From Nitrobacteraceae bacterium AZCC 2146 (GTDB lineage: Bacteria > Pseudomonadota > Alphaproteobacteria > Rhizobiales > Xanthobacteraceae): a DNA stretch of 64,000 nucleotides. This document shows, piece by piece, positions 47,782-51,777 of the stretch. The stretch covers positions 5,084,001 to 5,148,000 of the forward strand of contig JBAGRP010000001.1 of the NCBI GenBank assembly GCA_036924855.1, given 5' to 3'. Position numbers and translations under genes: made by a program. The notes beneath the pieces were generated by a model that did no database searches, was not told where the DNA came from, and worked only from the letters and a program-made list of their open reading frames with translations. Position 1 is the first letter of the stretch; each line of letters opens with the position of its first letter.

Positions 47782-49926
47782 TTATGCCGCGCGAATGTTC
47801 GACAAAAAGACATCGATTTCGTCGCGCAGAATATCCGCCTCGCGACGCAGGTCGCCGGAGGCGCCGAGCACGTCGTTCGCAGCAGTTCCTGCCTGAAGCG
47901 ATGCTTCGCTGACGCCGACGATGTTGCTCGACACTTCGCTGGTGCCGCCCGCGGCGTGCTGGATGTTGCGGGCGATCTCGCGGGTGGCCGCGCCCTGCTG
48001 TTCCACGGCGGCGGCGATCGCGGAGCTGACGTCGTTGATCTCGGCGATGGTCTGGCCGATGTTCCGGATCGCGCCGACCGCGGTTGCCGTCACCTGCTGC
48101 ATCGAAGCGATCTGCGAGCGGATTTCGTCGGTGGCCTTCGCGGTTTGATTGGCGAGGCTCTTCACCTCGGACGCCACCACGGCAAAACCTCGGCCGGCAT
48201 CGCCGGCGCGCGCGGCTTCGATGGTCGCGTTCAGCGCCAGCAGGTTGGTCTGCGAGGCGATGGTCTGGATCAGATCGATCACGGTGCTGATGCGGTTGGC
48301 GTTCTCGGCCAGGCCCTGCATCGTAGTGTCGGTCTGGCCGGCTTCGCTGACGGCCTTGGCGGCGATTTCAGCCGAACTGACCACCTGGCGGCTGATTTCG
48401 GAAATCGACGACGACAATTGCTCGGTTCCGGCGGAGACGGTCTGCACGTTCACCGAGGTTTCCTCGGCGGCGGAGGCCACCGCGCTGACCAGCGCGCTGG
48501 AGCGATCGGCGGTCGCCGACATGCTCTGGGCCGTGGTCTGCATGGAATTGGCTGAGGTCTGCAGTTTGTCGAGTGCTGCGCGAACCGTGGCTTCGAAATC
48601 GACGATGCGCGTTTCGATTCGCGAGGCGCGTTCGGACTTGGCGATACGGTCCTGGTCCTGTTCGGCGCTCAGCACGCGCGCATTGATCATGCTCTCGCGG
48701 AAAATCTCCAGCGAATTGGCCATCACGGCGATCTCGTCCTGCTGCCGGCTGCGGGCGATCTCGGTTTCGAGGTCGCCGCTGGACAGCCGCTGCATCGCGC
48801 GCTGCAGCTGAGCGATCCGGCGCAGGATGCTGCGGCCGACATAGAGCCAGACGAACAGCGCCGATCCGATCAGGGTCAGGGCACCCAATCCGAGCATCAC
48901 CTGGGTAGCGAGCGAAATTGTCTGCCGCGCCTGCAAGGTCGAAGCTTCGGTCTCGACGCGCACATTGTCGACCAGCTGCTTGACGCTGATGCCGAGGCCA
49001 AGATTGAGCTTGCGGGTTTCGTCGAGGATCAGCTCGCCATATTCGGCGGCATCGATTTCTTTCTGGCGCACCTTGAAGACACTGTTTTTGCCATCGCCCA
49101 GGGCCAGCACTTTCAGCGCGGAGTCCTTCAGGTCATCGGCGCCGCTCACATTGGCGACCGAATCGAGCATCGATTTGACGCGTCGCTGCCCGGCCTGGAA
49201 CGTCCGTTCGATCGGGGTGAGCGCTTCGGCTTTGTTCACCGAGAGCGCGGACATCAGGTCGGAGGCGATCAGGTTGGTGCTGGCGACGATATCGCCGACC
49301 TGCTCGATGGTCTTGGCGACTTCCGCCGCATTGTCCCGCGAAAAGTTCGCGGACCGCAGCGCTGCGGTCATGCTTCCCTGGGCGTCCATCAGCGCTGGCG
49401 CAGACATCGACACGAAAAGGGTCTCTGCCTCGCGCAATTCCTCATAAAGTTTCTGGTGCTGGGCGGCGGCATCGAGCCGTTCCTGGGCCGCCGCGCCAAG
49501 GCTGCGAATCGTATCCTCGATATTCTTCACGGTGTCACCGAGGGCCGCGACGACGGCCTTGTCGGCGCCGAGCTTGGCAATTGCGTCGAGTTTTTCGACG
49601 GCAATCTTGTGGGTTTCCCGCATTTTCTGCGAGCGGTCCTTCAGCGCATCCGCGCTGCCCGACGCCAGCAAAGTCGGCCCCTGACTTGCCAGGTTTTCGC
49701 TGGCCGTCGCCAGCTGCAGGCTTGCCGTCAACTTCGGGATGTCGCGTCCGCTCAGATTGGTCATCATCTCGCCGAGCTGGCCGAGAATCACCCCGGCGCC
49801 GACGCTGATGACGATCGCCATGCCCGCGATTACGGCAAAGGCGGCGAACAGGCTGCCCCGGATGCCCCAGCGTGGTCGTGAAAAACCGAACCGGCCGAAG
49901 TTTCCGATGATCGACGTCAACGCCAT
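47782..49926 (-). CDS. methyl-accepting chemotaxis protein
   Basis: A 714-residue chemoreceptor. TM1 (about residues 24-52) and TM2 (about 340-365, [22 protein letters not shown]) flank a long periplasmic helical sensor with no recognisable cache fold. HAMP follows ([26 protein letters not shown]), then the signalling coiled coil with the conserved tip region [37 protein letters not shown]. No CheR-binding pentapeptide is seen at the C-terminus. No che genes are nearby, so it works with a pathway encoded elsewhere. Confidence 0.95.
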
Positions 49927-50115: not shown

Positions 50116-50829
50116 TCAATACTTCGCGACGACCGGGCCACCCCAGTTGAAGCGGTAGTTCAGGCCAGCCTTGACGGTGTGCTCGTCGTTGCGGGTCGAA
50201 CCGAACGCGGCCAGCGGAGCCGTAGCGAAGGAGGTCTTGCCGAAGTCGTAGTACTGGTACTCGACCTTGCCCGACCAATTCTGGGTGAACAGGTATTCCA
50301 GGCCAGCGCCGACGGTGTAGCCATCCTTGCCGCCGCCATTGATGGCGATCGCGGTCGGACCAACCACGGACTGGTTGAAATCGGCGAAGCCGTAACCGCC
50401 CTTGACGTACAGCAGGGCCGGGCCCCAAGTGTAGCCGATACGGCCGGTGACCGAGCCGAGGCCCTTCAGGTTGTTGTTGTAGACATAAGCGCCGGGGAAC
50501 ACGACATTGTTGCTGCTGTCGCTGAGCCAGCTGTACTCAGCTTCGATGCCGAGAACCCAGTTCGGAGCGAACTGGTAGTCGTAGCCGCCCTGGACGCCGC
50601 CCAGGAACTTGCCATCGTTGTTGTTGTTGGCAACGCCCGAGAAGCCGTTGTTGCCGTTGAACGCGCCACCGACGTGACCGCCGATGTAGAAGCCGGTCCA
50701 GTTGTAGATCGGGGCAGCGACGTAGGCCGGGGCCTTCGTGTAGGGGCGAGCTGCGAGATCGGCTGCAAGTGCTGGCACAGTCGCGCCGAGGGCGACGAGG
50801 GCCACAGTACCCAGAAGGAAGTTCTTCAT
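50116..50829 (-). CDS. outer membrane beta-barrel protein (Omp25/31 family)
   Basis: A 237-residue outer-membrane protein. The signal peptide MKNFLLGTVALVALGATVPALA is followed by ADLAARPYTKAPAYVAAPIYNWTGFYIGGHVGGAF, the rhizobial Omp25/31 opening, then alternating amphipathic beta strands (GGYDYQFAPNWVLGIEAEYSW, SVTGRIGYTWGPALLYVKGGYGFA, VEYQYYDFGK) and a terminal strand ending in aromatic Tyr (WGGPVVAKY). GGAGAA precedes the ATG at 50829. Its upstream region contains a striking TTAA array, so it may be cell-cycle controlled. Confidence 0.93.
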   Translation of the reverse strand: MKNFLLGTVALVALGATVPALAADLAARPYTKAPAYVAAPIYNWTGFYIGGHVGGAFNGNNGFSGVANNNNDGKFLGGVQGGYDYQFAPNWVLGIEAEYSWLSDSSNNVVFPGAYVYNNNLKGLGSVTGRIGYTWGPALLYVKGGYGFADFNQSVVGPTAIAINGGGKDGYTVGAGLEYLFTQNWSGKVEYQYYDFGKTSFATAPLAAFGSTRNDEHTVKAGLNYRFNWGGPVVAKY

Positions 50830-51336
50830 TTTTGTATTCTCCAGAAAACGTTTTAGAGCAGCCGCGCTTCGGCTCCGTCCATGGCGTGGATGTAGACAGC
50901 TTTTGCATAAAATACTGTCACCAATCCGCAACAGGCGACGACATCCGAACCATCTGAGACAACTGGATTTTCTGTGCTTAATGCAGCCTTAATGAAATCT
51001 TAAAGTTGCCTTAATTTTCAGTGGTTTCACCTACTCCAATACCTTTTTGGCGCAAGCCGGCTGAGTTTGGTTTTTGTCTAAACCGGAAGTCGCATTCTCA
51101 AAAAGATGGGCTCAGCCAGAAGGCCGGATCGATTCTCAGAAATCGAAGGCGGGTACGCGCTTCTGTCTTCTGTGCATCCGGAGATCACTTGGCGAGTCTC
51201 TCTCCGGCGACGTCACGGACATATCACAGCGATCGGCGAGCTTGCGTCGTGGCCGCGACCGGAAACAAAAGGCACCTTCCAAGTTGGTCTTTGCGCGGGC
51301 GGCTGTCGGCGCCTCTCCGCAAAGGAAGCGCGTTGC
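50830..51336. other. 507-bp AT-richer spacer
   Basis: No gene is supported. Two overlapping open frames at 51021-51388 have no ribosome site and unlikely composition. The left part contains the TTAA array (50978-51014) and, by position, the porin promoter; the rest shows nothing recognisable. Confidence 0.45.
50978..51014. promoter_or_regulatory. four TTAA tetramers at exact 11-bp period: three overlapping CtrA-type boxes
   Basis: TTAA occurs at 50978, 50989, 51000 and 51011, each pair separated by exactly seven bases (TGCAGCC, TGAAATC, AGTTGCC). Each adjacent pair is a full TTAA-N7-TTAA match to the CtrA core consensus. The array lies about 150-185 bases upstream of the porin ATG and 323 bases before the plus-strand gene at 51337, so the porin is the likelier target. 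Confidence 0.65.
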
Positions 51337-51681
51337 ATGCAGGTCGAGCGGATTTTACGTGAGTACGGCCACTTTCTCCGGCCGATGAGCGAGGCGCCAC
51401 GGGACGGACAACGGATCTTGGGACATGCTGCCCACGCCAGGCATCTGGTCTCGTGTTACTGGGAAACCCGGCCGACGGTTCTCATCGGCCCGAATTGGGT
51501 TGAAGAGAAAGACAGCCCCGGCGGCTATCTCGATCGCTATTTCGATGGCTGGATCAATCCGCGCGAGTTCAGGCTTCTCGACGCCGTCGCGGTTAGCCGG
51601 CTGCTGGTCGCCTATATCGACGATGTCCGTGCAGCGGATAATCTTGAAGCGTTGAAGGTGCTGGAGCAGGCGGAGACGTGA
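51337..51681 (+). CDS. small hypothetical protein
   Basis: A 114-residue protein starting MQVERILREYGHFLRPMSEA. PRDGQRILGHAAHARHLVSCYWE and PNWVEEKDSPGGYLDRYFDGWINP recall small proteins of unknown function that begin with a PxDGxxIL motif. AAGGAAG lies before ATG 51337; ATG at 51382 (MSEAPRDGQ) is an alternative. No membrane segment. The GC-biased codon pattern supports real coding, but I cannot name a function. Confidence 0.55.
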   Translation: MQVERILREYGHFLRPMSEAPRDGQRILGHAAHARHLVSCYWETRPTVLIGPNWVEEKDSPGGYLDRYFDGWINPREFRLLDAVAVSRLLVAYIDDVRAADNLEALKVLEQAET

Positions 51682-51702: not shown

Positions 51703-51777
51703 TGGTGCTGCCAGACAGGATTGAACTGTCGACCTCTCCATTACCAATGGAGTGCTCTACCACTGAGCTACGGCAGC
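51703..51777 (-). tRNA. tRNA-Thr (anticodon GGT)
   Basis: The minus strand folds as a cloverleaf: acceptor GCTGCCG with TGGCAGC, D arm GCTC-AGTGGTAGA-GAGC, anticodon arm CTCCA-TTGGTAA-TGGAG (anticodon GGT), T arm GACAG-TTCAATC-CTGTC, discriminator A and an encoded CCA (51705-51703). It reads the threonine codons ACC and ACT. No duplicate or att-like copy was noticed. Confidence 0.96.

Follow-up and report, generated by a model that had tools for sequence, protein, structure and literature searches.

Four phased TTNAG half-sites as a probable response-regulator operator upstream of an outer-membrane porin gene in Nitrobacteraceae bacterium AZCC 2146 and related genera

Upstream of a gene for an outer-membrane porin, we found four half-sites arranged head to tail at a period of exactly 11 bp and conserved before orthologous porins of several genera. 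The array is probably an operator, on which an OmpR/PhoB-family response regulator would load cooperatively as two dimers and thereby set the level of the porin. A single-copy, highly ordered operator of this kind would provide a clean bait for the regulator of a porin that is conserved in plant symbionts and phototrophs.

Array upstream of the porin gene

The window analyzed here is the 64,000-nucleotide stretch C1:5084001-5148000 of a 7.64-Mb single-contig genome (G000). Its features of interest, in window positions, are the following:

50116..50829, minus strand: predicted target gene, an outer-membrane beta-barrel porin of 237 aa (Pfam OMP_b-brl)
51014-51010, 51003-50999, 50992-50988 and 50981-50977, minus strand (the porin strand): four half-sites TTAAG at period 11, forming the array 50977..51014
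50922..50976, minus strand: conserved linker from the array to the core promoter, with column information of 0.55 and 0.84 in its two parts
50893..50921, minus strand: presumed core promoter GTGACAG ... CTGTCTA, whose anchor GTGACAG occurs in 50 of 81 upstream regions
51106..51681, plus strand: divergent hypothetical ORF with no Pfam or NCBIfam match
47782..49926, minus strand: neighbouring chemoreceptor gene (MCPsignal, HAMP), a synteny marker of the orthologues

Among the matches listed, from which entries of the window genome itself may be missing, the porin is closest to Tardiphaga records (81% identity). A tRNA gene lies beyond the divergent ORF at 51706-51777 (minus strand; Rfam tRNA, 69.9 bits).

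The TTAA tetramers begin at 50978, 50989, 51000 and 51011 with seven bases between neighbours, which bears out the exact 11-bp period claimed in an earlier note on this DNA, and the units read, on the porin strand and in order, TTAAGGCAACT, TTAAGATTTCA, TTAAGGCTGCA and TTAAGCAC. The three overlapping TTAA-N7-TTAA pairs that it described are the only three in the window (shuffle mean 0.01), and the four tetramers, from a total of 25 TTAA in the window, are the sole ones of the intergenic region between the porin and the divergent ORF. Its judgement that chance was very unlikely also holds. The fourfold pattern, with up to three mismatches allowed, had a mean of 0.00 in 100 window shuffles, and when the 276-bp intergenic region (44.6% G+C) was shuffled 200,000 times by single nucleotides, three tetramers fell in register five times and four never. 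Genome-wide, the threefold TTAA pattern occurs at three places (reversed control 0) and the full four units at the window array only, in a single copy. The twofold pattern TTAA-N7-TTAA is not enriched, with 46 places in the genome vs 51 in the reversed control.

Conservation in orthologous promoters

We compared the window with 80 loci from named genomes that encode relatives of the porin, the best 80 of 331, which gave 81 upstream regions. The GTGACAG core was sought at -130 to -50 and was found in 50 of these, 76-108 bp before the start; the other 31 regions were set aside, 24 of them having another promoter type. Relatives of the chemoreceptor gene are present in 41 of the 49 loci with a GTGACAG core vs 1 of the 31 without it, and the core loci are therefore mostly syntenic orthologues.

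The best four-unit register lies 55 bp (29 promoters) or 56 bp (12 promoters) upstream of the GTGACAG core in 41 of the 50 promoters. The other nine have their best register elsewhere: at 66 bp in L016 and L031, 69 in L068, 75 in L041, and 79 in L056 and L082, with three of the nine (L024, L030 and L034) showing no clear array. At least 14 of 16 TTNAG matches were reached at period 11 in 36 of the 50 promoters and at periods 8, 9, 10, 12, 13 and 14 in none, where shared descent inflates the counts and related sequences are not independent events. Local shuffles reached 14 of 16 in 0 of 2000 trials, and the other porin group (24 promoters) gave at most 11 matches. Information per column, over 41 sequences, was 0.85 within the array vs 0.20 just upstream. 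Judged by this pattern of conservation, the array is regulatory DNA aimed at the porin. The porin is taken as the target because the array is conserved before its orthologues and relatives of the divergent ORF occur in 8 of 80 loci, all 8 among the 49 with the core; the divergent ORF is thus unlikely to be the main target and was rejected as such. A longer array is seen in L056 and L082, with an extra copy of TTAAGCAC some 24 bp beyond it.

The conserved unit is TT-N-A-G. Exact TTAA is found in units 1-4 in 35, 11, 22 and 28 of the 41 arrays, respectively, with all four exact in five arrays and one adjacent exact pair in 19, and position five is G in 38, 38, 36 and 31 of them. Unit 2 is spelled TTTA (12 arrays), TTAA (11), TTCA (9), TTAG (3) or otherwise (6). 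A matrix made from 34 of the 50 core promoters, picked by hand, has the consensus AAATTAAGGCnTCwTTnAGnTTTsATTArGGCnyCATTAAGCAC, and 31 of the 34 have A immediately before unit 1. The steady G at position five looks selected rather than drifted.

Distribution across genomes

Exact fourfold arrays occur in 8 of 296 family genomes (the reversed control in one), and seven of the eight precede the porin orthologue; the eighth (L100) lies near cytochrome c and narG-like genes, named by eye, and not at a porin. A 50-position sequence model built on 33 of the 34 matrix sequences (L053 was left out) matched 66 of the 296 genomes at E <= 0.01. By hand count, these include 12 of 18 genomes of the genus of the window (g1), 24 of 26 of g25, 15 of 16 of g28, 8 of 9 of g20, both of g6 and the one of g46, with two further matches in g24 and one each in g26 and g40. 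One match per genome was inspected, in sets of 30, 5 and 31, second matches in G220 and G228 being left out. A porin follows 65 of the 66 inspected matches, the orthologue in 63 and a distant porin of 34% identity in the two from g24; for the match in G285 (L285), no porin was found in the stretch fetched. Among the matches in the set of 31, the orthologous porin, where present, starts 133-156 bp past the end of the model. These results, together with the fixed distance of 55 or 56 bp to the core in 41 of 50 promoters, support the porin as the target proposed in the earlier note. The array is present before orthologous porins and is not common elsewhere, two points on which that note had let its reading depend.

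Among 249 genomes drawn from the order, nine match at E <= 0.001, eight of them from this family; the ninth, outside the family at the end of a trpS-like gene (G460, L231), was judged a chance match. The window genome has one match at 9e-15, followed by matches at 5.35 and 6.27, and thus no second target by the model at a meaningful E-value. No threefold TTNAG was found elsewhere in this genome (reversed control 1), and a porin paralogue of 65% identity in the same genome is without the array. A TTAA-N7-TTAA pair also lies upstream of two other beta-barrel genes (L140 and L141), which were considered as part of the same system and rejected, neither having the array; the box upstream of L140 (G000:C1:2563748-2563764) is of the CtrA type, TTAA-N7-TTAACC, on the other strand.

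Possible porin relatives with several barrels were also noted in this genome. Three successive porin matches fall seemingly in one 773-aa frame at G000:C1:4844108-4846306 (L119, L122 and L123), which suggests a protein with three fused beta-barrel repeats, and frames of 465-478 aa at 5064943-5067902 point to forms with two barrels.

Proposed mode of action

On the porin strand, the predicted operator has the form (TTNAG-N6)x3-TTNAG. Head-to-tail repeats at 11 bp are a habit of OmpR/PhoB-family regulators, and two features of such operators were found here: direct half-sites at period 11 only, among periods 8-14 tried, and eight regulators of the family common to three array-bearing genomes. 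With the presumed -35 element about 55 bp downstream, two dimers would load along a single helical face. The earlier note had proposed that the in-phase array suits cooperative loading, and 11-bp direct repeats do fit head-to-tail loading. If GGTGAC-17-CTGTCT is the promoter, as we infer, transcription would begin some 58 bp ahead of the ATG, with the array spanning approximately -127 to -90. Such positions can be occupied by class I activators in phase with the polymerase. The assignments of regulator family, sign and signal are likewise predictions; our guess for the sign is activation, with repression a less favored alternative. A consensus promoter scan found no site at the presumed core promoter.

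Two neighbouring elements may add to this picture. A second protein perhaps binds in the conserved linker. At 50893-50921 and in the orthologues, GACAG...CTGTC arms flank the presumed -35/-10 spacer and form an imperfect inverted repeat, a possible operator for a repressor.

Candidate regulators

The earlier note read the array as CtrA-type boxes. The core TTAA-N7-TTAA is indeed present three times, as it had stated, but the C or CC expected after the second TTAA is absent on both strands. Binding by CtrA would mean that the half-sites drifted from TTAACC to TTAAG in the Bradyrhizobium clade, four phased sites compensating for the weakness of each single one; this is one branch of the response-regulator operator reading and overlaps with it, and we consider it a serious candidate though somewhat unlikely. 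Apart from the threefold core, it is favored by unit 4 (TTAAG-CAC), which agrees with the half-site TTAACCAT at an average of 5.98 of 8 bases (about 4.3 for units 1-3), by CtrA binding reported upstream of Brucella omp25 (Francis et al., 2017, as cited in the passage seen of PMC10538546), and by the TTAACC arrays of genus g24 described below. However, the CtrA protein shares 97-99% identity with its counterparts in two other genera that carry the array, and the CtrA-type boxes of this genome read TTAACC. The G counts at position five point to a preference for G and not to drift, unit 2 is seldom exact TTAA, adjacent exact pairs and complete exact arrays are limited to the 19 and five of 41 noted above, and TTAA-N7-TTAAC occurs on either strand in 1 of the 41 orthologous arrays, the window array having no TTAAC on either strand.

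TTAA-N7-TTAACC itself has 22 matches at 20 places in this genome (reversed control 4). Boxes of this type precede flgB, a flagellin gene and a comM-like gene and also occur in the interval that separates homologues of def and rmuC (names by eye); ctrA, too, carries a conserved GTTAACCATA in three genera. The def-rmuC interval (L124, G000:C1:3352685-3352771) has three TTAA-N7-TTAA within 90 bp, of which two end in TTAACC, and is probably a CtrA promoter with multiple sites. Since TTAA-N7-TTAA alone is no commoner in this genome than in its reversed control, caution is warranted before such pairs are called CtrA sites.

The pattern TTAA-N7-TTAA-N7-YTAA-N7-TTAACC was found in 4 of the 296 genomes, all of genus g24 (four of the eight drawn), and not in the reversed control; the two g24 matches of the model are such four-unit arrays ending in TTAACC. 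An Omp25-type porin stands shortly downstream in all four, with 34-38% identity to the porin of the window and not its orthologue. In L288-L290, the last half-site TTAACCATAAAAA lies about 56-58 bp before a TTG start (the start in L291 was judged by eye). In L288-L291, the arrays lie from locus position 1501 onward, and a second porin gene adjoins the Omp25-type porin. The g24 arrays plausibly belong to CtrA. A tentative and rather unlikely extension is that the arrangement of four phased half-sites ahead of Omp25-type porins is ancient in the family; it would consist of CtrA sites that tie the porin to the cell cycle in g24 and have passed, with the TTNAG spelling, to a different response regulator in the Tardiphaga/Bradyrhizobium/Rhodopseudomonas/Nitrobacter clade. 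If such a hand-over took place, an undescribed specificity would own a single-copy switch dedicated to a porin. The comparison with the TTAACC arrays makes testable whether CtrA still reads the array or another regulator took over.

That a core regulator other than CtrA reads the array is a prospect we put not far short of even. OmpR/PhoB-family DNA-binding domain matches number 32 in the window genome, 9 in G061 and 11 in G089, the latter two genomes both carrying the array before the orthologous porin. The three have eight regulators in common, with identities of 79-99% (for RR153 in G061, across just 128 residues): PhoB, FeuP, ChvI, CtrA, CenR, a PetR-like regulator, RR143 and RR153, named by eye. 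Among those other than CtrA, we rank the ones of unknown motif first (the degP-linked RR143, RR153 and the PetR-like regulator), followed by FeuP. RR143 is CopR-like by NCBIfam, below the cut-off, and stands behind degP; the degP promoter, at the head of its operon, has a conserved block and no 11-bp TTNAG pair. No array was found on scanning the DNA upstream of 15 genes for OmpR-family regulators. A two-unit match upstream of RR146 scored 11.6, and neither G061 nor G089 has a close counterpart of this regulator. Because there is no second target and no array at the 15 regulator genes, neither regulon nor autoregulation can identify the regulator.

FeuP, an osmosensing-type regulator, could bind the array only with relaxed specificity, which we regard as improbable. 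All three genomes compared encode it (91-93% identity), PmrA is the NCBIfam model nearest to it, below the cut-off, and its half-sites are TTCA at 11 bp in the portion seen of PMC3616915, a spelling that unit 2 shows in 9 of 41 arrays. Against this, its own boxes, TTCAT-N6-TTCAC, have C at position three and T or C at position five, where the array has mostly A and G. These boxes occur upstream of feuP in all three genomes; TTCA-N7-TTCA lies just upstream of the gene at L224:1752, L225:1592 and, as the reverse complement, L226:1632. These loci represent three genera, and the finding agrees with the autoregulation that has been proposed for FeuP in S. meliloti.

A structural role is less probable still. 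The phased T-A or C-A steps would then form bendable AT-rich DNA for a MucR/H-NS-like protein or act through DNA structure alone, with no sequence-specific regulator. MucR recognizes AT-rich sequence that contains several TA steps but follows little consensus, and one of its peaks lies at Brucella omp25d, but its sites, in the section seen of PMC10746212, are 141-217 bp long and 74-83% AT, whereas the array spans 38 bp and shows base-specific conservation at G/C positions (the G after each core and GGC after the core of unit 1). Finally, although TTAA-N7-TTAA pairs alone are no commoner than in the reversed control, an array arising by chance or surviving as a relic without function is extremely improbable given the column information, the specificity for period 11 and the phased conservation across genera, and a chance origin is rejected on the window, intergenic and local shuffles and the genome-wide reversed control.

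Comparison with known systems

Architectures of four half-sites are known; the operator, its spelling and its regulator appear undescribed in the open-licence literature searched by titles, abstract openings and passages, where we found no description of an array at the porin of this clade. The restriction to open-licence papers makes this weak evidence of novelty. At E. coli ompF, several tandem OmpR half-sites lie upstream of the porin promoter, and they differ from the array in sequence and spacing. The PhoB box is CTGTCAT-N4-CTGTCAT. The published CtrA, FeuP, ChvI and CenR motifs, in the form in which the cited passages give them, were compared with the array, and none fits it fully.

Brucella omp25 is controlled by the OmpR-family regulator BvrR on three boxes (passage in PMC10538546), and control of Omp25/RopB-type proteins by BvrR/ChvI resembles the present case, as far as the passages seen describe it, in that an OmpR-family regulator occupies multiple boxes ahead of the gene for a related protein. 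The ChvI motif of S. meliloti, N-GCC-N8-GCC (cited in a passage of PMC9731502), is not formed by neighbouring units of the array, whose plus strand reads GCC-N8-ATC-N8-GCC by eye. For CenR, the motif is TGA-N8-TGA (passage in PMC9275681), and by eye no such pair lies within the array. The PmrA box, CTTAAG-N5-XTTAAT with tandem half-sites at 11 bp (passage in PMC3973317), is similar in its TTAA(G) half-sites repeated head to tail at 11 bp; it differs in its leading C, whereas the array mostly has A before unit 1, and the array has four units. None of six regulators of the window genome that were scanned passed the PmrA cut-off of NCBIfam. The FeuP box, TTCA-N7-TTCA, is not found in the window array, whose cores are TTAA; it is likewise an 11-bp direct repeat with a TT-N-A core, from which the array differs at the third and fifth positions. 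The CtrA box, TAA-N7-TTAAC (passage in PMC3616915), shares with the array the TTAA-starting half-sites set head to tail at 11 bp and the occurrence of several overlapping boxes, whereas the array has G and not C after the core and leaves the third base of unit 2 free.
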